From positions 1 through 56,659 of IMG/VR virus record IMGVR_UViG_3300010297_000006: a stretch of 56,659 bases of DNA; one strand, written 5' to 3'. The DNA comes from a virus. Shown piece by piece: positions 38,043-56,659 of the stretch. The first letter of the stretch is position 1. Each line of letters begins with the position of its first letter. Below the pieces are notes generated by a model. That model had not been told where the DNA came from. It ran no database searches and was given only the letters and a program-made list of their open reading frames with translations. A program made the translations under genes and the position numbers.

Positions 38043-38071
38043 TTGACTTTTTGCATAACACAATATATAAT
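38043..38071 (+). promoter_or_regulatory. sigma70-type promoter at the head of the accessory island
   Basis: TTGACT (38043-38048), a 17-base spacer and TATAAT (38066-38071) form a near-consensus host promoter just after the last structural gene. It is followed by AAGGAG eight bases before the ATG at 38092. The -35 and spacing match the promoters of gp55 and gp47. The island is therefore likely to be switched on by host polymerase, earlier than the tail genes. Confidence 0.85.
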
Positions 38072-38091
38072 ATTTTAAAAGGAGTTCTCCA

Positions 38092-38439
38092 ATGGATGAA
38101 AGACTAGAAAAAGCTCTTGACTTTAGTAACTATATGATTACTTTAGATAATACAAAAAGAGTTTTGAAAGAACAATACCAAGATGATTTATTATATTTTT
38201 GCAATGGAGGACAGTTTACAGTTAATCCAGGACTAGTTAGTTTTTGTCAAAGTTTGTTAGCATTAGGACAAGAGGAAACTGTACTTATTGATGATAACGA
38301 TATTCCAATACAGGTTGAAGATTTAAAAGTTTTTGCAAGTGAAATGGTTAACGTGTACTCAAAAGCAGCAAATAAATATATCACTGAATATAATAAACTA
38401 AAAACAAATAGAACTGTTAAGGGCATCATTGAAGTATGA
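38092..38439 (+). CDS. Conserved small phage protein of unknown function, first gene of island operon
   Basis: The 115 residues are acidic and mostly helical at both ends (LEKALDFSNYMITLDNTKRV; FASEMVNVYSKAANKYITEY), with a short beta-like centre (YFCNGGQFTVNPGLVSF, VLIDDNDIPIQVEDL). No catalytic motif is recognised. A strong host-type promoter and ribosome site precede it, and its stop overlaps the next ATG (ATGA). Proteins of this appearance occur in other marine T4-like phages, so it may belong to the phage core rather than to the biosynthetic set. Function is not assigned. Confidence 0.7.
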   Translation: MDERLEKALDFSNYMITLDNTKRVLKEQYQDDLLYFCNGGQFTVNPGLVSFCQSLLALGQEETVLIDDNDIPIQVEDLKVFASEMVNVYSKAANKYITEYNKLKTNRTVKGIIEV

Positions 38440-39281
38440 ATCAAGGTGTTGTTTTAATAGCTCGAAATAATACTGAAATAGATTATATAAAGCAAGCAAT
38501 TTTTCTTGCAAAACGTGTGCGCAAGTATTTAGACTTGCCCACTTCTTTAGTTACTGATAATGTTGATTACTTGTATAACACATACAAAAATAGTGTAGAT
38601 GTCTTTGATAAAATAATACAAGTTGATAATGACAAAAAATATAGCTATAAAAAATATTATGATGGTATATTTGCAAAAAAACAACTAGAGTTTAAAAACA
38701 GTAATCGAAGTAGTGTTTATGATTTGTCTCCTTACGACGAAACCTTGTTACTAGATACAGATTTTGTTGTTAGTAATGACATTTTAAATGAGTGTTTTGT
38801 ACAGCAAAAAGATCTTTTGCTATACAAAGATGCATTTGATTTATCAGGATGGAGAGATAAAAATGAGTTTACATTTATAAGTGAAATTGGGCCTACATTT
38901 TACTGGGCAACTTGTATATTTTTTAGAAAAACAGAACTTAACAAAACTTTTTTTGATCTAGTATCGCATATACAAGAATATTATCCACATTACCGTAACC
39001 TTTATAAACTAAACACAAATGTATTTAGAAATGATCATGCATTTAGTATTGCTATACATATTATGAATGGATACACAAACAATAACTTTGCAGGAACAAT
39101 GCCAGGTACAATGTATTATTGTACAGACAAAGATGTTTTAATAGATTTAAAAGATGATAACTTTTTATTTTTAATACAAAAAAGAAATGAAAGTAATGAG
39201 TATACACCTTTAAGAATAAAAGGAAGCAACGTACATGTGATTAACAAATACAGTTTGAATAGGATTATTGATAATGGCTAA
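38436..39281 (+). CDS. GT-A-type glycosyltransferase-like protein with DTD motif
   Basis: The 281 residues have the outline of a nucleotide-sugar transferase of GT8-like type. An N-terminal strand and helix (VVLIARNNTEIDYIKQAIFL) is followed by a DxD motif, Asp107-Thr-Asp109, in YDETLLLDTDFVV. A later FRNDHAFSIAIHIMNG block resembles the acceptor-side His/Asp region. The DxD pair usually binds the metal and sugar nucleotide. The gene is coupled to its neighbours by overlaps on both sides. The next gene has the same plan, so the two are probably tandem paralogues. Donor and acceptor are unknown. Confidence 0.6.
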   Translation: MNQGVVLIARNNTEIDYIKQAIFLAKRVRKYLDLPTSLVTDNVDYLYNTYKNSVDVFDKIIQVDNDKKYSYKKYYDGIFAKKQLEFKNSNRSSVYDLSPYDETLLLDTDFVVSNDILNECFVQQKDLLLYKDAFDLSGWRDKNEFTFISEIGPTFYWATCIFFRKTELNKTFFDLVSHIQEYYPHYRNLYKLNTNVFRNDHAFSIAIHIMNGYTNNNFAGTMPGTMYYCTDKDVLIDLKDDNFLFLIQKRNESNEYTPLRIKGSNVHVINKYSLNRIIDNG

Positions 39282-40104
39282 TTTTACATTATTAGCAGAA
39301 AATAAAAATCACGATTATATACAGCAAGCATACTTAGCTGCTTGCAGTATTAAAAAATATAACAAAAATGCAAATGTATGTTTAATTACTAACGACGAGA
39401 TAACACCTAAACAAAAAAGTGTATTTGATGATATTGTAGAAATACCATGGTATGAACAAAAAGAATCTAGATTCTCTGCAGAACATAGATGGAAAGTTTA
39501 TCATGCAACACCTTTTGATAAAACATTTGTATTAGATACAGATGTATTAGTATTAGAAAATATTGAACATTGGTGGAAGTTTTTAGATAAAAAAGATCTG
39601 TTTTTTACTTCTAATATTAAAACATATAGAGGTACAACATACAATACAGATTACTATAGACATTCATTTAAAACACATCAGTTACCAAATATATATTGTG
39701 CATTGTATTATTTTAAAAAATGTGATGATACACACACCTTTTTCAAGTTGCTAGAACTTGTAATGAATAACTGGGAATTATTTTATGGTCAGTTTGCTGG
39801 TGGTAAATACTTTCAGAAGTTTCCAAGTATGGATGTAAGTTGTGCTATCGCAGTAAAACTTTTAAATATTGAAAAACAAGTTACTAGCAACACAAGTTTT
39901 CCTCATTTGACACACATGAAGTTACATGGGCAAGATTGGTGGGATATTAAAACAGAGTCGTGGCAAGATAAGGTTGGTGTATATTTAGATGCCGATTGTG
40001 ATTTGTTTATAGGCAACTATAAGCAATCTGGAGTTTTTCATTATACTGAAAAAAACTTTGTAACACAAGAAATGATTGAAACATTTGAAAAAGGAATATT
40101 ATGA
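39274..40104 (+). CDS. GT-A-type glycosyltransferase-like protein with DTD motif, second copy
   Basis: I chose ATG 39274 (MANFTLLAENK); a TTG two codons earlier is also in frame. The 276 residues show the same plan as the preceding gene. The N-terminus is ENKNHDYIQQAYLAACSIKKY, then comes Asp88-Thr-Asp90 in FVLDTDVLVLENI, then a helical region and THMKLHGQDWW near 220. The reading is a metal-dependent sugar transferase with unknown donor and acceptor. It overlaps the upstream gene by eight bases and the downstream gene by ATGA, so all three proteins are made together. Confidence 0.6.
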   Translation: MANFTLLAENKNHDYIQQAYLAACSIKKYNKNANVCLITNDEITPKQKSVFDDIVEIPWYEQKESRFSAEHRWKVYHATPFDKTFVLDTDVLVLENIEHWWKFLDKKDLFFTSNIKTYRGTTYNTDYYRHSFKTHQLPNIYCALYYFKKCDDTHTFFKLLELVMNNWELFYGQFAGGKYFQKFPSMDVSCAIAVKLLNIEKQVTSNTSFPHLTHMKLHGQDWWDIKTESWQDKVGVYLDADCDLFIGNYKQSGVFHYTEKNFVTQEMIETFEKGIL

Positions 40105-40673
40105 GTGTATTTGTGAATGTAGACAAATATGTAACTTTTGACGAACATGGTAATCTTTTAGGAGTTTATAATAGAGTTCCTGATGATGCTAACTTTATTA
40201 AAGTTGATCCAAGTGATGTAGAAAATTTGATAACTGGTAAAGAACAGTTTAAAAACTATCTTGTGGTATTTGATAGCAAAGTAAAAATGCATGTGTTAAA
40301 ACATATATACAATGAAGATACTTATATGCAAAATATAAACGATCAAATATACAAGTTACCTACAATCTCAGATAATCCAGATTTAACAGTAACACAAGAT
40401 ACAAAAAATAAAAAATGGATTTTTACAGTTGATAAAAAAATACAACAAAATTTTAAACAAAATAAACTAAACTTTAATCAAGTTATGGGATTTAGTGTAA
40501 CTAAAAAAAATAATCCAAATCATTTACATAGATTTTTTGTAGTTGATATTTCTACAGTTATAAATGATGCACACACAATTGATTTTAACAGTGATTTAGA
40601 ACTTGACCCAGACGCATTTAGCGTGTATACTTCAAAGAGACTTGAAAGTTATTATCATGAGGTACTAGTATGA
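40101..40673 (+). CDS. Protein of unknown function within the glycosyltransferase operon
   Basis: The 190 residues have no motif I recognise. The N-terminal 30 residues (VDKYVTFDEHGNLLGVYNRV) look like a small beta hairpin. The middle is Lys/Asn-rich (KNKKWIFTVDKKIQQNFKQN), and the rest is predicted beta (HRFFVVDISTVINDAHTIDF). ATGA overlaps on both sides tie it to the two glycosyltransferase-like genes. It could be an accessory subunit or the protein that receives the modification. Neither is shown by the sequence. Confidence 0.6.
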   Translation: MSVFVNVDKYVTFDEHGNLLGVYNRVPDDANFIKVDPSDVENLITGKEQFKNYLVVFDSKVKMHVLKHIYNEDTYMQNINDQIYKLPTISDNPDLTVTQDTKNKKWIFTVDKKIQQNFKQNKLNFNQVMGFSVTKKNNPNHLHRFFVVDISTVINDAHTIDFNSDLELDPDAFSVYTSKRLESYYHEVLV

Positions 40674-41593
40674 CAGAGTTTAGGGTTTTAGACTACGATA
40701 TCATTTATCTTAGCTATGATGAACCAAACGCAGAAAAAAACTATGCAGATTTGTGCAAAAAAATTCCGTGGGCAAAACGTGTACACGGTGTAGAAGGTAG
40801 TGATGCTGCGCATAAAGCCTGTGCAGAATTAAGCGAAACTGATAGGTTTATTACAGTAGATGGTGATAACATTATTAATCCTTCTTTTCTTACAAAAAGT
40901 TTTAACTTAGATGACCATGAAGATGGACACTGGAATAGAAATGTAAGTTTAGAGGAGTGTGTGATTAGTTGGAGTGCCAAAAATACAATCAACGGTCTTG
41001 AATATGGTAACGGTGGAATCAAATGCTGGCCAAAGAAAAAAGTCTTAGAAATGCGCACCCATGAAAATGCAGATCCTAATAATCCACATGCACAAGTAGA
41101 TTTTTGTTGGGATATTGAATATATACAAATGAACGGTTGTTATTCAGAAATAATGAATAACGCTACTCCACAGCAAGCATGGCGTGCTGGATTCCGTGAG
41201 GGTGTAAAGATGGCACTTGACAGAGGAATGAAACCAAGTTTAGATGATTTTCATAAAAATCATTGGAAAAATCTACATAGATTGTATGTTTGGTTAATGG
41301 TAGGCGCCGATGTTGAAAACGGTGAATGGGCTATTTATGGTGCTAGAGAAGGCTTGTACAAAACAATGTGTACAGACTGGGATTTTGTTAATGTTCGTGA
41401 TTTTAAATGGCTTAATGAATATTGGAATAGCAAACAAATGAATGATGACGAAATGGAAGATAATACATTATCGCTTGGTTATAGTTTGATTGAAGAACTT
41501 GACTTGCCTATTGCAGCTCAGCCGTTTAATGGAAATCAAAGTCAGTTCTTCAAAACAGTGTACACAAATCCACCAAGAACTGCAAAGAGATAA
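40670..41593 (+). CDS. GT-A-like family protein with DGD motif
   Basis: The 307 residues begin with DIIYLSYDEPNAEKNYADL, followed by WAKRVHGVEGSDAAHKACAE and FITVDGDNII, in which Asp64-Gly-Asp66 takes the place of a DxD. This beginning is characteristic of a glycosyltransferase-like family common in marine phages and bacteria. The remaining part, with VSWSAKN-like and HWKNLHRLYVWLMVGADVENG segments, is helical and aromatic. It overlaps the preceding gene by ATGA and lies one base before the radical SAM block. The substrate is unknown. Confidence 0.6.
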   Translation: MTEFRVLDYDIIYLSYDEPNAEKNYADLCKKIPWAKRVHGVEGSDAAHKACAELSETDRFITVDGDNIINPSFLTKSFNLDDHEDGHWNRNVSLEECVISWSAKNTINGLEYGNGGIKCWPKKKVLEMRTHENADPNNPHAQVDFCWDIEYIQMNGCYSEIMNNATPQQAWRAGFREGVKMALDRGMKPSLDDFHKNHWKNLHRLYVWLMVGADVENGEWAIYGAREGLYKTMCTDWDFVNVRDFKWLNEYWNSKQMNDDEMEDNTLSLGYSLIEELDLPIAAQPFNGNQSQFFKTVYTNPPRTAKR

Positions 41594-41594
41594 T

Positions 41595-42977
41595 ATGTCA
41601 GAAAATACAGATAAACTTAAAAGTATTAATGCTATTACAACAAGGCATTTTTCTCCTACATTTTGTTTTGCAAAATGGTACCATACAACTATCTACTTGC
41701 AAACAGGTGAAACACACAGTTGTTATCACCCTGCTCCTCATCAAATTGATGTTGACGAGCTCCTAACCAATCCTAGTGCGTTGCATAATACAAAACAAAA
41801 GAAACAAGAACGCAGAGAGATGTTAGAAGGCAAACAATGTGTCGGATGTAACTATTGCTGGAATATTGAAAACATGGGAGACGATTATATTAGTGACCGT
41901 CATATTCGTAGTGGTAGTATTTACAGTGAAGAAAGATTGCAAGAAGTAAAGTTCAATCCTTGGGATTTTAATGTTAACCCTGAGTATATTGAAATTTCAT
42001 TTGGTAATGAATGCAACTTCCGTTGCGGATATTGTCATCCAAAAGCAAGTAGTAGATATTACAATGAAATCCGTCAACACGGTCCATATAACATGGTTAA
42101 AAATCATAGAAACGATATCGATTGGTTTCGTATATACGAAGAAGATAAAAATCCTTACTTACGTGCTTGGTGGAAATGGTGGCCTGAAGTTAGCAAGACA
42201 CTAAACATTTTACGTGTTACTGGCGGAGAGCCTACAATACAAAAAAGCACATATAGACTGTTTGAAGAACTTGAAAAAGATCCAAAGCCACATCTTGAAC
42301 TAAATGTGAACAGTAATCTTGGCGGCAAAGAAAAACAACTAGAAAAGTTTACTGATAGTGTAAACAGTTTGTTAAGTCAAAATAAAATTAAACAGTTTAA
42401 GTTATTCAGCAGCATTGATACTTGGGGGCCTCGTGCAGAATATATTAGAGACGGTTTAGACTTAGAAGTGTTTGAACGTAACTTAGATTACTTTATGCGT
42501 AATACCACTGCGCCTGTAACATTTATGATTACGTTTAGTTTGTTTAGTGTAACTACGTTTGAAACTTTACTAGAAAAAATGCTAGAATGGCGCCGTAAGT
42601 ATAATGATGTAAACAGTGGCAGATGGCAACGTATTCATTTTGATACACCATATCTAAAAGAGCCGTTGCAATATGATATAAATATTTTGCCTAAAGAGCA
42701 GTACCTGCCCTATATGGAAAAACATTTACAGTTTATTAGAGAAAATGTACAAGAAGGTAGTAAAAATCATTTTAGTGAATTAGAGTACGAAAAGTTTCGT
42801 CGTGTAGTTGATTACATGAGGTCTACAGAATATACTCCTGATAGAGTTAGAGAAGGTCGTCGAGATTTTTGGAACTTTTTTAAAGAACAAGATCGTAGAC
42901 GTAACGTAGATTTTGAATCTACCTTTCCTGAAATGAATGATTTCTTTGACCTATGTAAGGAAGCAAATGGATTTTGA
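41595..42977 (+). CDS. Radical SAM enzyme with N-terminal SPASM-like cysteine module (1)
   Basis: I chose ATG 41595 (MSENTDKL), just after the previous stop; an open frame from 41490 would overlap the upstream gene by 104 bases. The 460 residues carry the 4Fe-4S/SAM motif Cys140-Cys144-Cys147 (CNFRCGYC) and VTGGEP near 215. Before the core lies a cysteine module: FCFAKWYH near 23, SCYHP near 42, and CVGCNYCW near 82. That resembles an auxiliary-cluster (SPASM or twitch) region placed at the N-terminus. The C-terminus has RAEYIRDG near 282 and DFESTFPEM near the end, both shared with the two genes that follow. Such enzymes modify peptides or small molecules by radical chemistry. Confidence 0.85.
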   Translation: MSENTDKLKSINAITTRHFSPTFCFAKWYHTTIYLQTGETHSCYHPAPHQIDVDELLTNPSALHNTKQKKQERREMLEGKQCVGCNYCWNIENMGDDYISDRHIRSGSIYSEERLQEVKFNPWDFNVNPEYIEISFGNECNFRCGYCHPKASSRYYNEIRQHGPYNMVKNHRNDIDWFRIYEEDKNPYLRAWWKWWPEVSKTLNILRVTGGEPTIQKSTYRLFEELEKDPKPHLELNVNSNLGGKEKQLEKFTDSVNSLLSQNKIKQFKLFSSIDTWGPRAEYIRDGLDLEVFERNLDYFMRNTTAPVTFMITFSLFSVTTFETLLEKMLEWRRKYNDVNSGRWQRIHFDTPYLKEPLQYDINILPKEQYLPYMEKHLQFIRENVQEGSKNHFSELEYEKFRRVVDYMRSTEYTPDRVREGRRDFWNFFKEQDRRRNVDFESTFPEMNDFFDLCKEANGF

Positions 42978-44196
42978 CAAAGAAAAGTTATTAAATAGTA
43001 AAACATTTTGCATGTTTCCGTGGATACATTTAAACGTTACCCCAAAGGGTGATGTTTATCCCTGTTGTAGCAGTGATTATACTGATCCTTTTGATAATGT
43101 AAAAAACAAACCTTTGTCTGAAATATTTAATGATAAACTTATGCGTGAACTACGCTTGAGAATGCTTAATGATGAAAAAAGCAGTATTTGTGAATATTGT
43201 TACAAACATGAAAAAAGCAGTCCTTTTAGTTTTAGAACATATAGTTTAGAAAACTTTAGTAAATATTTTGACGAAGTAGTTCCAACTACTGAAGACGATG
43301 GAACTGTTGCAGATTTCAAAATGCGTTACTTTGATGTTAGATTTAGTAATATTTGCAACTTTAAATGTAGGACCTGCGGTGCAGAGTTTAGTAGTCAATG
43401 GGCGCAAGAAATGAAACAGCATGATCATGTTCCGCCTAACTATAGAATAATCAATCACGCCGATTCATCTGGTAAACTTTTAGAAGAAATAAAATCTCAA
43501 GTATGTCATATGGACATGGCATATTTTGCCGGTGGCGAACCGTTGATTACAGACGAACATTATCAAATACTTGAAGAAATGATACAAGGTGGATATAATA
43601 AACAAATCACTTTGCGATATAATACTAACATGAGCAACTTCAAATATAAAAAATATGATATATTAGATTTATGGAGTAGATTTAAAAAAGTAGAAATAAG
43701 TGCTAGTTTAGATCACTATGGAAAACGTGCTGAATATTTGAGGCATGGAACAGATTGGGCTGTTGTTGAAGAAAACTTAAAAAGTATTAGGAATTTAGAT
43801 TACATTGATTACCAGTTTAACACAGTACTAAGTGTATTTAATTATAGAACTTTGGCTGATTTTTTTACATACTTAATGAACAAAGATTTATTTAGACATA
43901 AAGATAGTATTAGTATATATAGAGCAATAACACCTTCTTATTTTTGTGCTCATGCATTGCCAGTAAGTCTAAAAGAAATTGGTAATAGTAACAATCAAAA
44001 ACTTTACGACTTTATGAGTAAAGATGGATGGTGGCCATCTCTACACGTTAAGGATGCAATGAATTTTGCAAATGAACAAGACACTTGGGACAATGAAAAA
44101 CAACAGTTTCAACATCATATACAAAGACGTGACGAGATAAGAAATGAAGACTTTTGTCAAACTTTTCCAGAACTTGCGGAGATGATGGATGGATAA
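42967..44196 (+). CDS. Radical SAM enzyme with N-terminal SPASM-like cysteine module (2)
   Basis: The start ATG 42967 overlaps the upstream stop by 11 bases. The 409 residues open with FCMFPWIHLNVTPKGDVYPC followed by a second Cys, and CEYCYKHE near 75, the N-terminal auxiliary-cluster-like module. The radical SAM triad is Cys130-Cys134-Cys137 (CNFKCRTC), with FAGGEPL near 185. Later come ASLDHYGKRAEYLRHGTDW near 245 and DFCQTFPEL near the C-terminus. The triad positions are identical to those in the next gene, so the two are close tandem paralogues. The reaction is unknown; radical modification of a peptide or carbohydrate is the likely class. Confidence 0.88.
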   Translation: MDFDKEKLLNSKTFCMFPWIHLNVTPKGDVYPCCSSDYTDPFDNVKNKPLSEIFNDKLMRELRLRMLNDEKSSICEYCYKHEKSSPFSFRTYSLENFSKYFDEVVPTTEDDGTVADFKMRYFDVRFSNICNFKCRTCGAEFSSQWAQEMKQHDHVPPNYRIINHADSSGKLLEEIKSQVCHMDMAYFAGGEPLITDEHYQILEEMIQGGYNKQITLRYNTNMSNFKYKKYDILDLWSRFKKVEISASLDHYGKRAEYLRHGTDWAVVEENLKSIRNLDYIDYQFNTVLSVFNYRTLADFFTYLMNKDLFRHKDSISIYRAITPSYFCAHALPVSLKEIGNSNNQKLYDFMSKDGWWPSLHVKDAMNFANEQDTWDNEKQQFQHHIQRRDEIRNEDFCQTFPELAEMMDG

Positions 44197-45472
44197 AGAA
44201 CATTTATTAAAAGAAAACAAAGCATTTTGCATTTTACCATGGATTCATATGCATGCCTGGCCTGATGGCAGAGTTATGCCTTGTTGTATTGCAGACAGCG
44301 ATCAGCCTTTTGCTAACTTAAAACAAAGTAGTATCGAAGAAGCGTGGAACAGTGATAGATATAAAGAACTGCGTCTTGCTATGCTAAATGGAGAAAGACT
44401 TGATTGTTGTAGACGTTGTTACGAGTTAGAAGATAGGACCTATGTGTGGACTCTTCGTAAAAATCACAATCATTGGTATGGAGATAAACATTTTGATTTA
44501 GTGCGGCAAACTAACAACGATGGTAGTATCGACGAAATGCGTATGGTATATTTAGATGTAAGATTTAGTAATATTTGTAACATGAAGTGTCGTAGTTGTG
44601 GTCCTGAACTTAGCAGTCTACATGCTAAAGAACACGGTGAACTATATGGTAAACATGAAGTTGCAAATATACTTAATAATGATGGCGAGATTATTATTAA
44701 TATTGCAAAAAAGAATAACTTTTGGGAAGATTTACAAAAATACTTGCCGGATTGCGAAGAAGTTTATTTTGCAGGCGGCGAAGCACTTATTACCGAAGAA
44801 CATTATAAGATATTAGATAAATGGTTAGAAACTAATAAAACTGATGTAGCATTACGTTACACTACAAACTTCAGTAATTTTAAGTACAAACGTAAAAGTA
44901 TTCTTGAATATTGGAAGCAGTTTAACGATATACATGTTAGTGCAAGTTTAGATTGCAACGGCGCACGAGCAGAATATAGTCGTCATGGAACAGATTGGGG
45001 TCAGATTGAACGTAATCGTTTACAGATGATTGAAGAAGTACCACATGTGCATTTCGAATTAACACCAACTATAAGTTTGTACAATGTTTGGAACTGGCCA
45101 GACTTTCACATGGACTGGGTTGAGCGTGGTTTAGTTGATATTGAAAATTGCAGACTTAACATGTTAACTGGTCCAGATTTTATGCGAGTTGATTATATAC
45201 CTGAGCATTATAAACAAGAACTAAGAAGTAAATATATTGATTACAAGGCATGGGCATTTGATAAAATTAAAGATCGAGCAATGGCTAAGCCTGAGATAAT
45301 CAAAGATGTTATTGGAAAGATTGATAGTGTTATTCAGTTCTTCAACGCTGGAACTTTAAATGAATCAAAACTAAAGCAGTTTTTTGACAATAATCATAGA
45401 TTAGATCAATATCGTGGAGAAGATTTTTGGAGCACATTTCCTGAAATGGAATGGTTAAGAAACTATGTCTAA
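44189..45472 (+). CDS. Radical SAM enzyme with N-terminal SPASM-like cysteine module (3)
   Basis: The 427 residues closely follow the previous gene: FCILPWIHMHAWPDGRVMPC plus a second Cys near 14-34, CRRCYELE near 75, the triad Cys130-Cys134-Cys137 (CNMKCRSC), FAGGEAL near 195, ASLDCNGARAEYSRHGTDW near 255, and DFWSTFPEM at the end. In the GGE motif the usual Pro is Ala (GGEAL). It overlaps the neighbours on both sides by eight bases. It may be a sequential enzyme acting on the same substrate as its paralogues. No precursor peptide gene is visible nearby. Confidence 0.88.
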   Translation: MDKEHLLKENKAFCILPWIHMHAWPDGRVMPCCIADSDQPFANLKQSSIEEAWNSDRYKELRLAMLNGERLDCCRRCYELEDRTYVWTLRKNHNHWYGDKHFDLVRQTNNDGSIDEMRMVYLDVRFSNICNMKCRSCGPELSSLHAKEHGELYGKHEVANILNNDGEIIINIAKKNNFWEDLQKYLPDCEEVYFAGGEALITEEHYKILDKWLETNKTDVALRYTTNFSNFKYKRKSILEYWKQFNDIHVSASLDCNGARAEYSRHGTDWGQIERNRLQMIEEVPHVHFELTPTISLYNVWNWPDFHMDWVERGLVDIENCRLNMLTGPDFMRVDYIPEHYKQELRSKYIDYKAWAFDKIKDRAMAKPEIIKDVIGKIDSVIQFFNAGTLNESKLKQFFDNNHRLDQYRGEDFWSTFPEMEWLRNYV

Positions 45473-49101: not shown

Positions 49102-49134
49102 AATATAAAGTCCTTTAACATTAAATATATTAGA

Positions 49135-49142
49135 TATTTATA
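49135..49142 (-). promoter_or_regulatory. Exact T4-type late promoter on the minus strand
   Basis: TATAAATA on the minus strand lies 33 bases before the TTG start of the 443-residue gene, in the 51-base divergent gap. The AAAGGA ribosome site lies between. It suggests late expression for this minus-strand cassette, unlike the host-type promoter at the head of the island. Confidence 0.65.
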
Positions 49143-49152
49143 GGAACATCAA

Positions 49153-49941
49153 ATGGAGTTACACGATAACGGTTTACTTATTAATCCAGAAAGAATAAAC
49201 AAAACTATGAAGTTTATGTCTCAACGAGAACAAGACGATTATTACAGAGAATGTAAACGAAATCCTAGTTGGGAATGGGCTGGTGTAAATATTGAATATA
49301 AATTTAACGAATATGGACACAGAACAAAATCGGTTGCCGATTTGTCTCATGATTTTGTTTTAACATTTGGATGTAGTTATACCGAAGGTGTAGGATTACA
49401 CCACGATCAAACTTGGTCTTGGAAAATATCAAAATATTTAGAAACCGATGTGTATAATGCAGCAAATCAAGGTACCGGTTGTGATATTCAGTGCTATCAA
49501 GCATCACAATGGATTAAAAATAACTTTCCTATTCCTAAAATTGTTATAGTACAATGGCCAGCACATACACGCAAAAGTTTTATCTATCACAATAACAATG
49601 ATTATCGGTTCACTGATCGTGCAGAATCGAGAGATATAGACGGAACTTGGTATAGAAAAAGATATATCATGGACTACGGTGAGCTACATTTTGCTAATAG
49701 ATTATGGTTTGATCATTTTAACTTATTGTGGAAAAGCATGAATGTTCCTGTTTTAAATTTTTCATGGGAAATGGATCATGAACGTATATTAAATAGTCCA
49801 TATAGATTATGGGTTATTAGATGTAAAAATGGATCTATGAAAGCAAGAGACATGATGCATGACGGAAAAGAATGGCATCAAGAAACTGTAGAAAAGTTAA
49901 AAGGCTTGCTTTCGTTACCCGATTTCACGCATAAGATCTAG
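49153..49941 (+). CDS. SGNH-hydrolase-like protein (second of three)
   Basis: The 262 residues carry block I LTFGCSYTEGVGLHHDQTW with Ser75 as the predicted nucleophile, an AANQGTGCDI block near 97, and near the C-terminus DMMHDGKEWH, where Asp233 and His236 fit the DxxH pair. The N-terminal 65 residues are an extra region (FMSQREQDDYYRECKRNPSW). The 3' end overlaps the minus-strand amidinotransferase by 27 bases. An esterase or acyl-transfer role on a carbohydrate is inferred from family, not from substrate evidence. Confidence 0.6.
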   Translation: MELHDNGLLINPERINKTMKFMSQREQDDYYRECKRNPSWEWAGVNIEYKFNEYGHRTKSVADLSHDFVLTFGCSYTEGVGLHHDQTWSWKISKYLETDVYNAANQGTGCDIQCYQASQWIKNNFPIPKIVIVQWPAHTRKSFIYHNNNDYRFTDRAESRDIDGTWYRKRYIMDYGELHFANRLWFDHFNLLWKSMNVPVLNFSWEMDHERILNSPYRLWVIRCKNGSMKARDMMHDGKEWHQETVEKLKGLLSLPDFTHKI

Positions 49942-50922
49942 TGTGCAGCAATGGAAACAACCGCCTAATGTACGTGCGTGACGCAATGGCAACATAGCAC
50001 ACTCAATACCGTGTGCTTCTAGTGCTTTACGTGTAGGATCTTGATGTTCTTCTAATACAACTAGATTAGGATTAACACTAAACAAGTTTACATTCCAAGT
50101 CCAAATACTACTGTTGCATAGCCCTGGATAATGTCCTGCATCAACAGGATCCGGCGCCCAAATAATATCCCAATCCTTGAACGGACCAGGCAAAACATCT
50201 TTACTTTTAATTCTACTTGGATTAGCTAGTAATAGTCCTTCACGTAAAAATGCAATAGTGCTATCAATGTGCATATAACTGTAAACATTTTCAAGTGTAT
50301 GTACTTTTTTATCACCCCATTCTTGAAAATCATATCTAGGCTTATTGAGCCATTGATCTAAATAGGCAGCACCTGCTTTGTTTCCGCTATTACTTACTAG
50401 ATACAAAATGTCATCATTTGCACGAATAGCATTAGCAGCATCAAAGCAAGGCGCTACTTCAGTAAGTGCTAGTCGATCAGGATCGCCAACACAAGTTTCA
50501 TCGTAGAGGTCGTCATTATTATATTGAGGGCTTAGTTCTACGCCTCCAATGTGGGGTAGCATATGATGAAACTCTCTCCTTCTTGCTCGCAAACTCATCG
50601 GCGTTGCAAGAAATCCTTTTTTATGAACAAATACAGTATCACGAGGACAATAGTTGTAGTATTCAACATCAGGTGTACGTTTAGGTCTAACAACTTCAAC
50701 GCCTTCGCCTTCGAGAAAAGCAACAAACTTATCTAAATCTTCGTTGCTTTCTTCAACAACTTGATCAGGATATAGACCAGCCTTTACATCACTTACATCC
50801 TGTCTATCTGCATAGTTTATACAACGTAGACTTTTGTCCATTTCAGGAATACGGCAGTAGTCTGCAACGCCAACTAAAACCTTCTTTAATGGATCCCATT
50901 CATTTGAGCTATAAATATTCAT
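49915..50922 (-). CDS. Amidinotransferase (AGAT/StrB-like)
   Basis: The 335 residues match the amidinotransferase branch of the guanidino-modifying superfamily, close in length to StrB (about 347). Key residues are in place: PRDTVFV near 93, Asp161 in FDAANAIRA, His218 and Asp220 in YMHIDST, and the catalytic Cys325 in GGCFHCCT. These enzymes move the amidino group of arginine to an amine, giving guanidino compounds such as guanidinoacetate or guanidino-inositols. The acceptor here could be an amino sugar made by the neighbouring aminotransferase; that link is inference. The gene is a minus-strand insert between two SGNH-like genes and overlaps the 3' end of one of them. Confidence 0.85.
   Translation of the reverse strand: MNIYSSNEWDPLKKVLVGVADYCRIPEMDKSLRCINYADRQDVSDVKAGLYPDQVVEESNEDLDKFVAFLEGEGVEVVRPKRTPDVEYYNYCPRDTVFVHKKGFLATPMSLRARRREFHHMLPHIGGVELSPQYNNDDLYDETCVGDPDRLALTEVAPCFDAANAIRANDDILYLVSNSGNKAGAAYLDQWLNKPRYDFQEWGDKKVHTLENVYSYMHIDSTIAFLREGLLLANPSRIKSKDVLPGPFKDWDIIWAPDPVDAGHYPGLCNSSIWTWNVNLFSVNPNLVVLEEHQDPTRKALEAHGIECAMLPLRHARTLGGCFHCCTLDLMREIG
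50910..50917 (+). promoter_or_regulatory. Exact T4-type late promoter inside the amidinotransferase start
   Basis: TATAAATA on the plus strand lies 25 bases before the ATG at 50943 and within the first codons of the divergent amidinotransferase gene. A TAAGG ribosome site follows. It would drive the third SGNH-like gene. Confidence 0.65.
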
Positions 50923-50942
50923 ACTATATTTAAGGACATTAT

Positions 50943-51752
50943 ATGAGTAGATTATTCACTTTTGGTTGTAGTTTTACAAGTTACATGTGGCCAACATGGG
51001 CAAACATTATTGCATATGATAAAGAGTTAGAACTTTACAATTTTGGTTTAGCAGGCTTAGGTAATGTAGGAATACAACACAGAATACTCGAAGCTGATAT
51101 AAAACACAAGTTTACACCAGACGATAAAATAATGATATTGTGGAGTAGTTTTAGTCGTGAGGATAGATTTGACAATGGAATGTGGAAAGCTCATGGAAGT
51201 GTTTTTAACACAGGTAGTCCTTACAATAATAGAACATGGCTAACAAATCATTGGAGTATGCAAAACGATTTAGTTAAAAATATGACGTCAATTATATATG
51301 TAAATAAACTGTATAAAGATAATATTATATGGCAAGGACACAGCTTTACACCTTATACAAATGAGGCAGCTATATTTTTTGATCATTCTGAACAATGGGA
51401 CATGTTAAAGCATTTTTATGAAAAAGAACTTCCAGAAATCAGTTGGCATATGTTTGAAACTAACTTACCGTTTGGAAAATTACAAGATAGTCATCCTGAT
51501 ATAAAAGGCCATATGCAAAAAGTCAAAGATTGGATTTATCCGTCACTGGGATGGAAAATAAGAGAAAAAACACTTGACAGATTTACTTTATTTTCAAACA
51601 TGATTGAAGATTTTGTTATAGAAAATGATATAGTAACAAATCTTGACCCAGTTTATAATTATATACATAACAACTTGTATTTGAGATCTGACTTCAAAGA
51701 TTTAAAAAAATATTCAAGAAACAGGTATATCCTTGAAGATATAGTTATTTGA
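50943..51752 (+). CDS. SGNH-hydrolase-like protein (third of three)
   Basis: The 269 residues begin almost at once with block I, FTFGCSFTSYMWPTWANII, Ser10 being the predicted nucleophile. An NFGLAGLGNVGI block follows near 33, and a DSHPDIKGH block near 182 fits the Asp-His pair. The family acts on ester-linked groups. An exact late promoter and ribosome site precede it. Its last 39 bases overlap the 3' end of the minus-strand aminotransferase. It is clearly related in plan to the genes at 47035 and 49153 but diverged outside the catalytic blocks. Confidence 0.6.
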   Translation: MSRLFTFGCSFTSYMWPTWANIIAYDKELELYNFGLAGLGNVGIQHRILEADIKHKFTPDDKIMILWSSFSREDRFDNGMWKAHGSVFNTGSPYNNRTWLTNHWSMQNDLVKNMTSIIYVNKLYKDNIIWQGHSFTPYTNEAAIFFDHSEQWDMLKHFYEKELPEISWHMFETNLPFGKLQDSHPDIKGHMQKVKDWIYPSLGWKIREKTLDRFTLFSNMIEDFVIENDIVTNLDPVYNYIHNNLYLRSDFKDLKKYSRNRYILEDIVI

Positions 51753-52316
51753 TATATCAGGATAATCTTTCCAAGACCAAATTTTTGGAGTACGTTGTAT
51801 AGCATCTGGCAGTTTGTCTAACCCAAGTTGTGCAGTTTCTGGAGTTAAGTAGTAATGGTATCCCATACTAGTTATTTTTTGTTCAGGCCAAGGAGCATTT
51901 CTGTGTCTACCGTCATATCCCATTTTTAATAAGTTCGCACAATCTACTACATTATCGCATAATATCATGCCTGCTCTACCTAAACTTAAATGTTTTTTGT
52001 ATTGAAAACTTATACACATAAGTGTGCCAGGAATATAACTATTTTGCCTCCAAAGTGTAGCAGCATCAATAATATTAGTGTTTGATAGTTTATAATACTC
52101 AGTCCATTGCTCTCTGTTAAAACTAAAACTTATATCTAGTTTTTTAAGAGTTAAAGGAATACTTAGGTATGTATGGTTTGGAACAGTGGTTTTTTTGATT
52201 TTTTTATACCGTAAACATAACTCTATAGCATGAGTACAACAGTCTGTGCTTACTGCACACGGCGCTCCAAAAAAGTCTGCAATCGCATTTTCAAACTCAT
52301 TAACTATTTCAAACAT
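51714..52316 (-). CDS. Shortened DegT/DnrJ/EryC1-type aminotransferase
   Basis: This PLP-dependent sugar aminotransferase family normally has about 370 residues, but the gene gives only 200. The conserved blocks remain in order: FENAIADFFGAPCAVSTDCC, then VPNHTYLSIPLTL, Asp84 in IIDAATLW (PLP ring contact), SFQYKKHLSLGRAGM with Lys108 as the probable Schiff-base lysine, and GYHYYLTPETAQLGLDKLP near 165. The small C-terminal domain and part of the middle are missing. Such enzymes put an amino group on keto-sugars. Whether this short form is active is uncertain. It overlaps the SGNH-like gene tail to tail. Confidence 0.65.
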   Translation of the reverse strand: MFEIVNEFENAIADFFGAPCAVSTDCCTHAIELCLRYKKIKKTTVPNHTYLSIPLTLKKLDISFSFNREQWTEYYKLSNTNIIDAATLWRQNSYIPGTLMCISFQYKKHLSLGRAGMILCDNVVDCANLLKMGYDGRHRNAPWPEQKITSMGYHYYLTPETAQLGLDKLPDAIQRTPKIWSWKDYPDISNNYIFKDIPVS

Positions 52317-52321
52317 AAGTA

Positions 52322-52329
52322 TATTTATG
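52322..52329 (-). promoter_or_regulatory. Late-like motif before the aminotransferase
   Basis: CATAAATA on the minus strand lies only five bases before the aminotransferase ATG, so a transcript would be nearly leaderless. It also contains the ATG of the divergent gene on the other strand. Low weight. Confidence 0.2.
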
Positions 52330-53388
52330 TATGAGTTAAAATACCATCAAAATAATGGAACACATGTTTTTTATGCTTGGGGACCTAATACACCTGAACA
52401 AGTAATGAAATGTATTGATAATCCACAAACAAAAGAAATTATTATTATTGCTCCTGAAGAATGGGAACCTGTTCTTTTAGGAGGCTCTTCGTCGGCAGTT
52501 TACAAAACATTAGAGTATGCAAAACTAAAAAATATAAAAGTTACATCTTACTATGGAGCATGTACTGATAAACGTTTAAACTTTAGATATAAACACATTG
52601 ATTTTGATATAAAACATTGGGAGAATTATTTTGCACATAGACTTGCATTTAGAAACAAGCATGGTGTATATCCTATCAAACCTGATCCAACAAAACTTGA
52701 TAAACATTTTGTAAGCCTAAACGGCAGACCTCATTGGTGGAGGAGTATGTTTATAGACAAGTTGTATGGTGAAGGTTTATTTGACTATGGTTATATAAGT
52801 TGGCATGAGTTTGATTATGAAGATTACCAATCTTTATGGGATTTTAAATATTGGGAGCCAAAAAATCTTAATTTTGACAAAAAGTTTCATCAAAGTAACG
52901 GAATGTGTGATATATTTGTACCGCCTAATGAGTTTGCTAATAGTGTTTTCAGTGTTATCAGTGAAAGCAATTTAGACTGTTTGTTTATAACTGAAAAAAC
53001 TTATAAAGCAATATACCATCAACGGCCTTTTTTAATATGGGGAGCACCATATTCTAATATGTATTTAAACAATATAGGATTTAAACTTTTTGATAATATT
53101 ATTGATTATAAGTTTGATAAAGAAATACACGATGAAAAAAGATGTGATATGTTTATAAAACAAGTACGTGATCTTTGTTTGATAGATAAACACGAATTAT
53201 ATAATGTTACTAAAGATATTGCTGAGTATAACTTTGAAGTTTATTTAGACCATTTAAAAACTAAACGGTTTGTTCCAGAAGGCTTTGAAAGTTTTTGTAA
53301 AAATAATACAGATGTTCACAAACAGTTGCAAACTTATTTGGAATGTGTAAATAGTTATGAACCACTAATGGAGTTTTTAAAAAGTTAA
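52327..53388 (+). CDS. Glycosyltransferase-like protein with 'TEK...PF..G.P' C-terminal module
   Basis: I chose ATG 52327 (MYELKYHQNN), which leaves the divergent gene free; upstream frame from 52246 would run antisense through it. The 353 residues include FVSLNGRPHWWRSMF near 125 and, near 220-241, FITEKTYKAIYHQRPFLIWG followed by NIGFKLFDNIIDY. This is the same C-terminal block as in the genes at 47770 and 54280, and resembles exostosin-like or GT10-like sugar transferases. No signal peptide is seen, so it acts in the cytoplasm. Donor and acceptor are unknown. The epimerase follows after one base. Confidence 0.55.
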   Translation: MYELKYHQNNGTHVFYAWGPNTPEQVMKCIDNPQTKEIIIIAPEEWEPVLLGGSSSAVYKTLEYAKLKNIKVTSYYGACTDKRLNFRYKHIDFDIKHWENYFAHRLAFRNKHGVYPIKPDPTKLDKHFVSLNGRPHWWRSMFIDKLYGEGLFDYGYISWHEFDYEDYQSLWDFKYWEPKNLNFDKKFHQSNGMCDIFVPPNEFANSVFSVISESNLDCLFITEKTYKAIYHQRPFLIWGAPYSNMYLNNIGFKLFDNIIDYKFDKEIHDEKRCDMFIKQVRDLCLIDKHELYNVTKDIAEYNFEVYLDHLKTKRFVPEGFESFCKNNTDVHKQLQTYLECVNSYEPLMEFLKS

Positions 53389-53389: not shown

Positions 53390-54301
53390 ATGAGAATATT
53401 ATTGACAGGATCGAGCGGATTTATCGGACAACATTTACTACCAAGACTTAAAACAATAGGTGAAGTATTTGAACTGAAAAGTGATTTAACACATCACACA
53501 GGTGTACAACAAGAAGTTAAAGAAATCAAACCTGATATTGTTGTTCACTTGGCTGCAAGAACCGAAGTGCAAAAAAGTTTTTATGAACAGGTAAGTTTCA
53601 GCGAAGTAAACTATGTAGGAACAGTAAATCTTATTGAAGCCTGTAGAGCAGTTGATCCTATGCCGTACTTTGTGTTTGCAAGCACAATGGAAGTCTATGG
53701 TTGGCAACCTATTAGTGACGAAGTAGAAGTAACAGGTACATATGTAAATAGTGTAGCATTTGATGAGAATACTATTCCTCATCCTAATGCTCCATATGCA
53801 GTTGCAAAATATGGTTGTGAAAAATACTTAGAGTATGCAGAACGAGCATACGGGTTGAACTGGGCAAGTTTTAGACAAACAAATGCGTATGGTCGTAAAG
53901 ATAACGACTTTTTTGTAACTGAACAGATTATTAGTCAAATGCTTAAAGGTGATACTTGCAACCTAGGTTATAGTGAACCTTATAGAAACTTTATCTATAT
54001 TGAAGATTTGCTTGATGCATGGATGGCAGTTATTACTAATGGCGATAAAGTTAAAGGAAATATATTTACTATTGGGCCAGACGATCCCCGCAAAATTAGA
54101 CATTGTGCAGAATATATTGCTGAAAAACTTGATTGGAATGGACAAATCAACTGGGATACAAAAGATCCACGACATGGAGAGATTTGGTGGCTAAACAGTA
54201 ACCACAATAAAATCACCGAAGTTACAGGATGGGCACCTAAAATTACCTATGAAGAAGGAATAGATAGGACCATTCACCATTGGAAACAAATAATAAAATA
54301 A
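53390..54301 (+). CDS. NAD-dependent epimerase/dehydratase (extended SDR)
   Basis: The 303 residues form a typical sugar-nucleotide epimerase or dehydratase. The NAD-binding GSSGFIG lies near residue 7, VHLAARTEV near 54, FASTMEVYG near 103 with the catalytic Ser/Thr, and YAVAK near 136 with Tyr136 and Lys140 as the catalytic pair. RQTNAYGRKDN follows near 163. It probably changes a UDP- or GDP-linked sugar, supplying donors to the nearby transferases. Family cannot be narrowed by eye. It follows the glycosyltransferase-like gene by one base and overlaps the next by 22. Confidence 0.88.
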   Translation: MRILLTGSSGFIGQHLLPRLKTIGEVFELKSDLTHHTGVQQEVKEIKPDIVVHLAARTEVQKSFYEQVSFSEVNYVGTVNLIEACRAVDPMPYFVFASTMEVYGWQPISDEVEVTGTYVNSVAFDENTIPHPNAPYAVAKYGCEKYLEYAERAYGLNWASFRQTNAYGRKDNDFFVTEQIISQMLKGDTCNLGYSEPYRNFIYIEDLLDAWMAVITNGDKVKGNIFTIGPDDPRKIRHCAEYIAEKLDWNGQINWDTKDPRHGEIWWLNSNHNKITEVTGWAPKITYEEGIDRTIHHWKQIIK

Positions 54302-55410
54302 ACTATTGCGATGTAAAACACACAAGATACATTGAACCGTTTAACTTACACACCAAAAAATATAGTGAGTGGTTAGCTAATCCTAGTGGCAAATATTTTT
54401 TTATAGTTCCTATTGCAAATATATTCAACTGTGAAGATAAAATACAAGAAGCAAAAAACAATAAAGATGTTTATGTATTGTTTTCTGATGTTTTAGAAGG
54501 ATATGCACTAAGATATTTTCCAGATCTTTATGAATGCACACAAAAATACGATTGTATAAACAAAATATATTTTGCTACAGGATTATATCAAGCAGAAGCT
54601 GAATATAATCGTTGGTTACGTGAAAAAAAACTTAAAAAAACATTTCAAGTATTTTATTATCCCGAATGGTATCATAGAGTATACGACAACTATTATGATC
54701 AGCCATTAGATAATATACCTTATACAAAAGACTATGTATATTGTTGTTTAAACAATCGTCCTCGAGCGCATCGTATGCAAACTGTTGCTTATCTAAATCA
54801 CTTAAACTTGTTACGACCTAACATAGGTAAGGTAAGCTGTTTAGATAATCATTATGAAAAAGATACAAACAAACTTACACCTGAACAACTATTGTTTCCT
54901 TATAGTCATAACTATTCAGACAAACATAAACAGATTTTAAAAACACAACAAACAGAGTTATGGAAAAAACTACCTTTAAATATCGATACAGAGGATTTTT
55001 CAGCAGGTTGTAGACCTCATGATTATAATCCAGGAATATATAACGATTGTTTTTTTAATATAGTTACTGAAACTCATTATCATACTGTACATCAAAAACA
55101 TTATCATATATTCCTTAGTGAAAAAATGTGGAAACCTATAGTATGCAAACAAGCATTTATAGTAATAGGTCCAAAAAATACACTTCAATACCTAAAAAAA
55201 CTTGGCTTTAAAACATTTTCGTGTATAATAAACGAAAGCTATGATTCAGAAGATGAAAGCACTCGATTGTTTAGTGCAATCGATGCATTAAATGAAGCAC
55301 AACAAAAATATAGTGTTGCAGAAATGAATAGTATGACTAAACAAATAAGAAAACACAATCTAAAACACTTTATCAAGATACAAAAAAGTATGGTTAAAAC
55401 ATGCTGGTAG
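54280..55410 (+). CDS. Glycosyltransferase-like protein with 'SEK...' C-terminal module, TTG start
   Basis: The 376 residues start at TTG 54280, ten bases after AGGA, inside the epimerase gene; no near ATG is available. A block near residue 278, FLSEKMWKPIVCKQAFIVIG, followed by YLKKLGFKTFSCIINESYD, is the same module as in the genes at 47770 and 52327. CCLNNRPRAHRMQTVAYL near 155 may be another conserved part (NxRxHR-type). A cytoplasmic sugar transferase is inferred. It overlaps the methyltransferase-like gene by ten bases. Confidence 0.55.
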   Translation: METNNKINYCDVKHTRYIEPFNLHTKKYSEWLANPSGKYFFIVPIANIFNCEDKIQEAKNNKDVYVLFSDVLEGYALRYFPDLYECTQKYDCINKIYFATGLYQAEAEYNRWLREKKLKKTFQVFYYPEWYHRVYDNYYDQPLDNIPYTKDYVYCCLNNRPRAHRMQTVAYLNHLNLLRPNIGKVSCLDNHYEKDTNKLTPEQLLFPYSHNYSDKHKQILKTQQTELWKKLPLNIDTEDFSAGCRPHDYNPGIYNDCFFNIVTETHYHTVHQKHYHIFLSEKMWKPIVCKQAFIVIGPKNTLQYLKKLGFKTFSCIINESYDSEDESTRLFSAIDALNEAQQKYSVAEMNSMTKQIRKHNLKHFIKIQKSMVKTCW

Positions 55411-56006
55411 ATTTAGATGATGTAGCATTTTGGATGGATGCAATACGCAACAGTGAAAATCACTTTGGTGTACTTGAAAGTTTTTGGAAAGGACAACTCA
55501 AAAGCAAAGTATGGCTTGTAAACCAGTTATCTAAACATGTACCCGACAAACCTCTCAATATAGTAATACATGGCGGCTGGAATGGCGTGCTTGCAAGTTT
55601 GTTATTTAACAGCAATATGAAAATAAATGACATTCGCAGTGTAGACATTGATTCAAGTTGCGTAGAAACTGCAAATATGATTTGTAAAAGACAAGAAATG
55701 TTAGGCAAGTTTAATGCTATTACTGCTGATATGTGTGAATATGAATATGAGTTTGATCCTGATGTTGTTATCAATACAAGCACAGAACATATTAGTCAAG
55801 AACAGTATGATAAATGGTTATCTAAAGTGCCTTCGACTAGTTTAATAGTTCTACAAAGCAATAACTATTATGACTTGCCTGAACACATTAGATGCTTTGC
55901 CAATGTAGTAGATTTTTATGAACATAGTAAACTTAGATATATAAAACAGCATGACACTTTAGAACTGCCTTTATACAATCGATTCCTTTTGATTGGAGAA
56001 AAATGA
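55401..56006 (+). CDS. SAM-dependent methyltransferase-like protein
   Basis: The 201 residues resemble a class I methyltransferase: LNIVIHGGWNGVLASLLF near 52 for SAM binding, IRSVDIDSSCVETANM near 75, AITADMCEYEYEFDP near 103 and VVINTSTEHI near 121. The glycine loop is G-G-W-N-G rather than the classic GxGxG, as in a family found in marine phages. It lies between a glycosyltransferase-like gene (ten-base overlap) and a radical SAM gene (ATGA). It may methylate a sugar or protein; the substrate is unknown. Confidence 0.55.
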   Translation: MLVDLDDVAFWMDAIRNSENHFGVLESFWKGQLKSKVWLVNQLSKHVPDKPLNIVIHGGWNGVLASLLFNSNMKINDIRSVDIDSSCVETANMICKRQEMLGKFNAITADMCEYEYEFDPDVVINTSTEHISQEQYDKWLSKVPSTSLIVLQSNNYYDLPEHIRCFANVVDFYEHSKLRYIKQHDTLELPLYNRFLLIGEK

Positions 56007-56659
56007 ACAAAGACTTGATTGCAATGGTGCAAAACACTATTGCTGAAAAAACCACTCCAACATTTTGTGCATTGCCGTGGATACACATGGCAACAAGACC
56101 CAACGGAGACATGCGATTGTGTTGCAGTGCTAATGCTAGTGGTGCAGGTTCAGATCACACGGTAGGATTAGTCAAACAGCAAAACGGTGATCCTATCAAC
56201 TTCAATACTGTTACTCCTATGCAAGCGTGGAACAGCGATTATATGAAAAGTGTACGCACAACCATGATGGAAGGTGCAGTACCAGCAAGTTGTACCAAGT
56301 GCTTTGCAGAAGAGTCACAAGGTGTTGTTAGCAAACGCTTGTGGGAAACAGGCACATGGATGGAGCGTGGACTTGATGTAGAAGAACTGCTGAACAACAC
56401 ACATCAAGATGGTACATACAAAAATGAACTGCAATACTTGGATTTGAGATTAGGACACACTTGTAATATCAAGTGTGTAATGTGTTCTCCGCATGATAGC
56501 AGCAAGTGGGTAAAAGACTGGAAAGTGCTAGAGCCGCAACTGGAAGATCCTGAAGTAAAGCGACAAATGCAATGGGACAAAGCTGCTTTCAACAACAAGT
56601 GGCATGAAAATGAAATATTCTGGGAACAGTTGTACAAGCAAATACCCAACTTGAAGGAA
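56003..56659 (+). CDS. Radical SAM enzyme with N-terminal SPASM-like cysteine module (5), partial at window edge
   Basis: The open frame gives 219 residues and runs off the end. It has FCALPWIHMATRPNGDMRLC plus a second Cys near 21-41, CTKCFAEE near 95, and the triad Cys154-Cys158-Cys161 (CNIKCVMC). It is the fourth enzyme of the same N-terminal-module type, 10.5 kb after the first three, and its insert between the cysteine blocks is longer. An ATGA junction ties it to the methyltransferase-like gene. The GGE motif and C-terminal part are outside the window. Confidence 0.85.
   Translation, partial: MNKDLIAMVQNTIAEKTTPTFCALPWIHMATRPNGDMRLCCSANASGAGSDHTVGLVKQQNGDPINFNTVTPMQAWNSDYMKSVRTTMMEGAVPASCTKCFAEESQGVVSKRLWETGTWMERGLDVEELLNNTHQDGTYKNELQYLDLRLGHTCNIKCVMCSPHDSSKWVKDWKVLEPQLEDPEVKRQMQWDKAAFNNKWHENEIFWEQLYKQIPNLKE

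Follow-up and report, generated by a model that had tools for sequence, protein, structure and literature searches.

What would a virus build with an aminotransferase, an amidinotransferase, a series of glycosyltransferase-like proteins, and a run of radical S-adenosylmethionine (SAM) enzymes encoded directly behind its tail genes, and onto what would the product be placed? This question is raised by IMG/VR record IMGVR_UViG_3300010297_000006, of which a stretch of 56,659 bases (the window) was analyzed. The window encodes a late sigma factor, an SbcCD-like protein, and baseplate and other virion proteins, with the baseplate wedge protein closest (~35%) to those of the Atu_ph07, SCTP-2, RaK2, and PA5oct-like jumbo phages, and a six-gene tail block (tf1–tf6) is followed by an island of 21 genes, named A to U. 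A first-pass annotation had proposed that the island genes together build and attach an unusual, possibly guanidinylated, decoration to a virion or host component. The reading that we favor, tentatively and with confidence a little short of even, is that of a tail-module glycan island in which P, N, and L would add a guanidino sugar, with the virion as the favored acceptor. What survives of the earlier proposal is a glycan-building island beside the tail module with a plausible guanidinylating step; the sequence itself does not fix the target.

N is, judged by its sequence, a StrB1-type amidinotransferase, and amidino transfer is predicted for it. Its best match in PDB was StrB1 (1bwd; 2.3e-55 over residues 6–332 of 335), followed by HsvA (3.7e-35) and AGAT (about 5e-26), and D161, H218, and C325—which we take to be the catalytic Asp, His, and Cys of StrB1/AGAT amidinotransferases—are conserved in all 17 sequences compared. 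A search of 50,697 phage records with N matched a single record.

P scored 42.1 bits against Pfam DegT (cut-off 19.8; 8.7e-11), and when its profile was compared with solved structures the best matches were perosamine synthetases (1.8e-12), with other sugar aminotransferases close behind and an inosose aminotransferase at 5.9e-7. The pyridoxal 5′-phosphate lysine and the Asp motif (K108 and D84) are present in 21 of 21 sequences. The family is 194–234 aa long (median 199, for 128 open reading frames [ORFs] above 280 bits, not de-duplicated), about half of the 360–390 aa usual for DegT/perosamine synthases, and P, falling short of full length, is classed from its sequence as a DegT-related mini form, not as a standard member. 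Seven of the same phage records were matched by P.

The likely substrate of P is suggested by the company that its relatives keep. Among 68 non-redundant P loci (all non-redundant sets were built by shared 3-mers, with cut-offs of 0.6 or 0.7), drawn from a P-centered scan that took the best 80 of at least 600 matches and not a sample of all P relatives, N lay within 5 kb in 26 and a short-chain dehydrogenase/reductase (SDR) of the GDP-mannose 4,6-dehydratase (GMD) type in 27; no locus had both, and 15 had neither. The one P-linked SDR that was searched matched GDP-mannose 4,6-dehydratase at 1.7e-92. TIGR01472 (GMD) gave matches at 1e-10 in 8 of 18 records, two of them strong (379.6 and 370.1 bits) yet still under the curated cut-off of 415. 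GDP-perosamine is known to be made by a GMD acting together with a DegT enzyme; because of this route, the GMD pairing, and the perosamine-synthetase profile, P probably aminates a GDP-4-keto-6-deoxy sugar.

In a tree of 88 P proteins, the N-linked and the GMD-linked forms tended to group together but did not make up single clades (8 and 4 changes; bootstrap support had not settled). A strict mutual exclusion of N and GMD was considered and dropped, since the loci are related and the Fisher value of 1.6e-8 therefore overstates the case; it is also contradicted by L048, which carries N and GMD ~9 kb apart and no P in its 21 kb. As a separate observation, the mini-DegT gene touches a GMD-type dehydratase gene in L123, L137, L150, and L165, likely a two-gene perosamine operon of many uncultured phages.

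With respect to L, the third member of the cassette, an AlphaFold2 model (predicted local distance difference test 86.7 for E, described below, and 84.3 for L; predicted template modeling score 0.86 and 0.87, respectively) was predicted to adopt a GT-B fold, aligning with T4 beta-glucosyltransferase (VIA Z 11.2, root-mean-square deviation [rmsd] 4.9, 271 aligned residues), with a fucosyltransferase (VIA Z 10.5, rmsd 4.8, 260 aligned), and with TarM (also 10.5). At the sequence level, L gave no Pfam glycosyltransferase match and no credible PDB profile match. The residues of its EK motif, E337 and K338, are invariant in 16 sequences. In 17 of 80 non-redundant P genes, a set that mixes N-centered and P-centered loci, the P and N reading frames overlap or lie almost end to end (−19 to +3 nt), and L comes after the pair in the same orientation, at no more than 3 kb in nine of these 17 and no more than 1.5 kb in seven. 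The window keeps the P–N–L order and strand, interleaved with the opposite-strand SGNH-like genes O, M, and K. From K to Q (47035–53388), the strand flips gene by gene (+ − + − + − +), as it does in several close relatives; in many distant relatives, unlike the window, P, N, and L all point the same way.

The A–E core is nearly invariant behind the tail genes in the loci scanned. An E-centered scan took the best 80 of at least 600 matches, which is not a sample of all E relatives, and gave 56 non-redundant loci, of which 45 extended 5 kb or more upstream. The counts upstream of E in these 45 were 44 each for A, B, and C, 40 for D, and 43 for tail-block genes. The order from the tail block through A-B-C-D-E-F onward is the same in 4/4 relatives with flanks (G003–G006), with small differences further down, and even in a distant record (G009) the tail block, A, B, C, E, M, F, L, P, N, E, T, and U are recognizable at 24–65% identity, partly rearranged. 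The core is rich in glycosyltransferase-like proteins. The profile of C matched glycogenin at 9e-6. Foldseek found the peptide S-glycosyltransferase SunS/ThuS (7e-5) as the best match to the model of E, the N-terminal half of which aligned with GT-A folds (VIA Z 9.5, rmsd 3.4, 135 residues). D107, D109, H267, N270, and K271 of B are invariant in 19 sequences, the DxD assignment being at the motif level only, and a PDB profile search with B gave no credible structure match. No relatives of E or B were found at 1e-5 among the 50,697 phage records. Matches to the E profile also lie in long ORFs of 990 to 2199 aa (L045 17994–20963, L051, L163, and L166), and by eye the L045 ORF consists of repeated E-like units.

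Of the six tail-block genes, three have virion or tail matches: tf2 contains a tail-collar domain (2.1e-14), tf3 matched virion proteins, and tf4 matched a tail-fiber PHROG (1.2e-15); tf1 matched a PHROG of unknown function. The last two, tf5 and tf6 (36091–38036), are paralogues with 42% mutual identity that directly precede the island.

Evidence bearing on timing comes from a T4-type late promoter motif, searched as [TC]ATAAATA. It is kept before tf5 in 4/4 relatives (at −31 or −34), and, both in the window and in 2/2 relatives, it lies 31–32 nt upstream of the gene for the baseplate wedge; in 2/4 relatives, tf4 has CATAAATG at −5. Across 13 loci chosen from the window's own group (L007–L031, including the near-identical L007), the motif was found 5′ of O in 12/19, L in 5/13, P in 4/13, and Q in 1/14 cases. 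In all, 22 genes had the motif in their 5′ window, against 0.008 per gene expected from its overall density (35 sites over all 546 kb of strand). For some ORFs the start seems to have been placed too far upstream, judging by two O sites at +21 and one P site at +12, and the P sites at −12/−13 lie rather near the gene for a promoter. We consider late expression likely for O and L and possible for P.

From the gene families, active-site conservation, gene order, linkage, and late-promoter motifs described above, we infer substrates, an order of reactions, an acceptor, a timing, and a role for the radical SAM enzymes as follows. In an uncultured T4-like jumbo phage, B, C, and E, encoded in a block that keeps its place after the tail genes, would build a glycan. 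P would aminate a nucleotide-linked 4-keto-6-deoxy sugar, the best guess being the conversion of GDP-4-keto-6-deoxymannose to GDP-perosamine; N would transfer an amidino group from arginine to the amine made by P; and L would pass the guanidino sugar to its acceptor. Q, S, R, the SGNH-like K, M, and O, and the radical SAM enzymes may diversify or lengthen the glycan or the molecule that carries it. Because part of the stretch appears to be expressed late, the virion, most likely its tail fibers, is the first-choice acceptor. A narrower version, in which a minimal P–N–L pathway makes a 4-guanidino-4,6-dideoxy sugar and places it on the phage's own tail fibers, within a tail-anchored glycosylation core shared by a large group of aquatic phages, is unlikely.

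A number of points weigh against this reading. With respect to the sugar, TIGR01472 gave weak R-type matches (about 38–44 bits) or none in window-type records, which leaves the host or R as the source of the keto sugar, and the STMEVYG active site of R lacks the acid residue usual in 4,6-dehydratases. The pairing of N with P is loose: P is missing from the 5 kb around N in 6 of 20 close non-redundant N loci (4 of the 15 that have full flanks), and among 11 more distant N loci it is present in just one. For L, Foldseek returned nothing below 1e-3 (best 4.8e-3), and fold matches alone do not show function. The late motif was absent before s1–s3, hub, s6, big, tf1–tf3, and tf6 in the relatives tested and was found 0 times in the 13 loci before N, K, M, R–U, J, D, E, and the radical SAM genes, so "late" rests on few genes; family searches with tf5, which does carry the motif, and with tf6 gave no match. 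Glycosylation of a virion protein is itself something that we infer from genes alone.

Finally, the distribution of the cassette does not follow that of the core. Among 50 core-bearing contigs, many of them fragments, N was found in two and P in one; these are 50 of the 56 non-redundant E contigs, with L211, L212, L217, L240, L244, and L249 (all ~10 kb or less) left out and L268 (7.0 kb) kept. The distance between E and N is 8.3 kb in the window, and an 8-kb downstream scan of the E loci is uninformative for P and N. Thus, P–N–L is an accessory module, not one fixed pathway. The comparison of gene content that the first-pass annotation had suggested bore out a conserved A–E core behind the tail genes, and it divided the island into three layers of different distribution—the core, the tandem radical SAM genes, and the minus-strand P–N–L cassette. 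The claim that the genes work together fails on this point, the core being widespread and P–N, often with L, forming a cassette of its own in other phages.

Setting the tail-fiber glycan aside for the moment, the same sugar pathway might decorate host lipopolysaccharide or capsule, blocking superinfecting phages or hiding the infected cell; we regard this as possible, if somewhat doubtful. In the sections cited, capsular polysaccharide clusters of cyanophages and jumbo phages are read as host-envelope modifiers (PMC7824862), and pelagimyophages are described as having a variable structural-region island with glycosyltransferases and radical SAM cassettes, the host-recognition cluster, placed between VrlC and gp14 (PMC7029224). 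Both resemble the present island in being big islands of glycosyltransferases and sugar enzymes, and gene content downstream of E varies here too. Among the 14 bacterial loci with N, moreover, the two whose gene neighbors were inspected place it near glycan genes: in a Lentisphaerae metagenome-assembled genome (MAG), N directly adjoins a full-length DegT ORF and a C-methyltransferase gene lies ~1 kb further, and in a betaproteobacterial MAG, the genes near N include a GT2 gene, a radical SAM gene, and three NodZ-like genes, one of which exceeds the cut-off. These two neighborhoods also count for the favored reading. Unlike the sporadic published clusters, however, in whose cited sections no amidinotransferase is mentioned (PMC7029224, PMC7824862), the window has an A, B, C, E core that is near-invariant and anchored behind the tail block, and the late motifs before O, L, and P fit the time of virion assembly.

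It is quite improbable that P and N act like StsC and StrB1 to make a guanidino-cyclitol, either free or as an antibiotic-like or glycan-attached product. Streptomycin synthesis uses an StsC aminotransferase step and a StrB1 amidinotransferase step, and O-antigen synthesis uses GMD and perosamine synthase steps; the island is like these in combining an aminotransferase with an amidinotransferase, its relatives in combining an SDR with a DegT aminotransferase, although P is about half the usual length and its two partners did not occur together within 5 kb in the 68 P loci. StrB1 as the best match of N, the inosose aminotransferase match of P, and the annotation of a cyanophage N homologue as an inosamine amidinotransferase all speak for a cyclitol. 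However, perosamine synthetases rank higher in the P profile, P pairs elsewhere with GMD-type SDRs, and a Pfam scan of the 20 island genes A–T found no inositol dehydrogenase or phosphatase.

Two further explanations are very unlikely. Hypermodification of phage DNA by the transferases and radical SAM enzymes would accord with the top fold match of L and with the known action of phage glycosyltransferases on DNA (a reference cited in PMC12619734), but the other GT-B folds score alike for L, the tail linkage and late motifs point elsewhere, and no base-hydroxymethylating gene was found among the 20 island genes scanned (the island only, not the rest of the genome). Maturation of a peptide resembling ribosomally synthesized and post-translationally modified peptides by the radical SAM enzymes, with the sugar genes as a separate unit, draws on their N-terminal SPASM/Twitch layout, SPASM enzymes often acting on peptides, and on the peptide S-glycosyltransferase match of E, but no precursor peptide was identified (small ORFs were not systematically searched), and in close relatives the radical SAM genes lie within the same conserved order.

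The favored guanidino-glycan island is not without precedent in its gene content, since clusters of this kind have already been published, contrary to the statement that no described phage system has this combination. For the Campylobacter T4-like phages CP220 and CPt10, clusters of five radical SAM genes with a putative glycine amidinotransferase were already reported in 2010 (PMC2853527), and the present island likewise has about five radical SAM genes with an amidinotransferase. The amidinotransferase of CP220 has the AGAT/StrB1 fold and is matched by the N profile at 6.7e-43, and its five radical SAM genes lie in one stretch with two nucleotide-diphospho-sugar transferase genes. The CP220 stretch differs in that, at E 1e-3 and with the best family taken for each ORF, the island profiles detected nothing there beyond N and three I-type radical SAM matches, and no P, L, E, or R. 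Synechococcus phage S-SCSM2R (PQ898602) likewise encodes a mini-DegT protein of 195 aa (52%), an amidinotransferase (65%) annotated as "inosamine amidinotransferase," a radical SAM protein, and several glycosyltransferases; its cluster differs in lying all on one strand and including 2OG-Fe(II) oxygenases, and the island profiles gave no match in the stretch other than N, P, and, weakly, an I-type protein. As many as 12 radical SAM genes are also on record for one marine T4-like genome, in the part of the source cited (PMC5332604). Among the matches listed in open-access literature searches, there was no paper that proposes a phage guanidino sugar, a mini-DegT/amidinotransferase cassette, or a tail-anchored A–E core.

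The family assignments of the first-pass annotation were largely borne out. A CX3CX2C motif was read by eye in all five radical SAM proteins, of which F, G, H, and the partial U exceed the curated cut-off of N_Twi_rSAM (NF033640, NCBIfam; 170 bits), and I, at 43 bits, does not; I lies at the Pfam Radical_SAM cut-off (29.0 vs. 29.5 bits, and 30, counted as over, in another scan). The epimerase (R; Pfam epimerase-type SDR at 1.6e-38, PDB UDP-glucose 4-epimerase at 2.7e-28, with the STMEVYG variant in 49 of 50 close ORFs, not de-duplicated), the aminotransferase, the amidinotransferase, and the three EK-type transferases also stand. Among the three DxD/DGD transferase-like genes, C and E are supported by profile and model, and B at the motif level. 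Weaker than proposed are the three SGNH-like proteins, which carry GCS and D/H motifs, with GCSH, H233, and H239 invariant in seven sequences of K; profile searches of solved structures with M and O returned no SGNH structure and no credible match. The methyltransferase-like assignment of T, with a sub-threshold match behind it, is likewise weaker. The position after virion genes is supported by tf2, tf3, and tf4, the genes with tail or virion matches; tf1, tf5, and tf6 gave no such match.

The host-type promoter said to open the island is present before A. A site of this kind (TTGACA, 17 nt, and a −10-like box with 4 to 6 of 6) was seen by eye in 4/4 close relatives and a similar one in 1/3 distant relatives; promoter-like sites are no commoner in the window than in shuffles (98 vs. 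100.9, standard deviation 11.7). With L, N, and P on the minus strand among plus-strand genes, one promoter cannot open the whole stretch. The island continues beyond the window in L007, a near-identical contig (99.9% over 16.7 kb) that completes U (460 aa) and has three further radical SAM-like ORFs.

Radical SAM genes are frequent among relatives of the island. Downstream of E, in 36 non-redundant loci with 8 kb, F was found in 15 and G/H/U types in 25, and twelve N-carrying contigs, taken whole, contained 5 to 21 N_Twi matches each at E 1e-3, some below cut-off. H matched four Vibrio phages (22–25% identity) among the 50,697 phage records. Four contigs of 306–353 kb from jumbo phages (L066, L062, L069, and L075) have 12 to 19 N-Twitch matches each, and L101, a Chloroflexi MAG contig that may be a mis-binned phage contig, carries a distant N beside several N-Twitch-type genes. 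In L051 (3973–7089), a 1039-aa ORF appears by eye to fuse nucleotide-sugar 6-dehydrogenase-like, S-type EK transferase, and methyltransferase-like parts. Coordinates of all features are collected in Table 1.

Table 1. Features of the window, in order of position, with their predicted assignments.
Feature	Positions	Strand	Description
Open frame of 4593 aa	16123–29904		Between baseplate wedge and tail block; PHROG of virion structural proteins
Tail block tf1–tf6	29843–38039		Six genes directly before the island
Late motif before tf5	36065–36072	+	T4-type, TATAAATA, 26 nt ahead of ATG
Promoter before A	38043–38071	+	Sigma-70-like, TTGACT-17-TATAAT, 11/12 consensus
A	38092–38439	+	115-aa protein without assigned function, tail-linked core
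B	38436–39281	+	DTD-motif glycosyltransferase-like protein
C	39274–40104	+	GT8-like glycosyltransferase
D	40101–40673	+	Core protein without assigned function
E	40670–41593	+	GT-A-fold glycosyltransferase-like protein (predicted model)
F	41592–42977	+	N-Twitch radical SAM; NF033640 305.9 bits
G	42967–44196	+	N-Twitch radical SAM; NF033640 363.6 bits, SPASM
H	44189–45472	+	N-Twitch radical SAM; NF033640 379.5 bits
I	45465–46427	+	Short radical SAM protein; Pfam Radical_SAM
J	46424–47074	+	Possible small kinase/phosphotransferase; weak PHROG kinase match, 0.0056
K	47035–47793	+	DUF6071/SGNH-like; Pfam DUF6071 3.7e-12
L	47770–49101	−	GT-B-fold transferase, EK family (predicted model)
Late motif before L	49135–49142	−	TATAAATA, 41 nt ahead of start
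M	49153–49941	+	SGNH-like; GCSxTxG and RDxxH invariant in 14 sequences
N	49915–50922	−	StrB1-like amidinotransferase
Late motif before O	50910–50917	+	TATAAATA, 33 nt ahead of ATG
O	50943–51752	+	SGNH-like; GCSxT and DxH invariant in 16 sequences
P	51714–52316	−	Miniature DegT aminotransferase, 200 aa
Q	52327–53388	+	EK-family transferase; profile-homologous to L
R	53390–54301	+	Nucleotide-sugar SDR, STMEVYG active-site variant
S	54280–55410	+	EK-family transferase; profile-homologous to L, 5e-31
T	55401–56006	+	Methyltransferase-like; sub-threshold Pfam match, E 0.021
U	56003–56659	+	N-Twitch radical SAM, cut by window end; NF033640 179.1 bits

The half-length DegT enzyme P is of interest to enzymology. 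If the favored reading is true, a concrete product—one nucleotide sugar made and used by three enzymes—would be available for a kind of cluster described since 2010, for which no product is proposed in the passages cited. Furthermore, virion glycosylation would be a conserved feature of many uncultured phages and, on the narrower tail-fiber version, a cationic sugar coat on the virion would constitute a new kind of viral surface chemistry.

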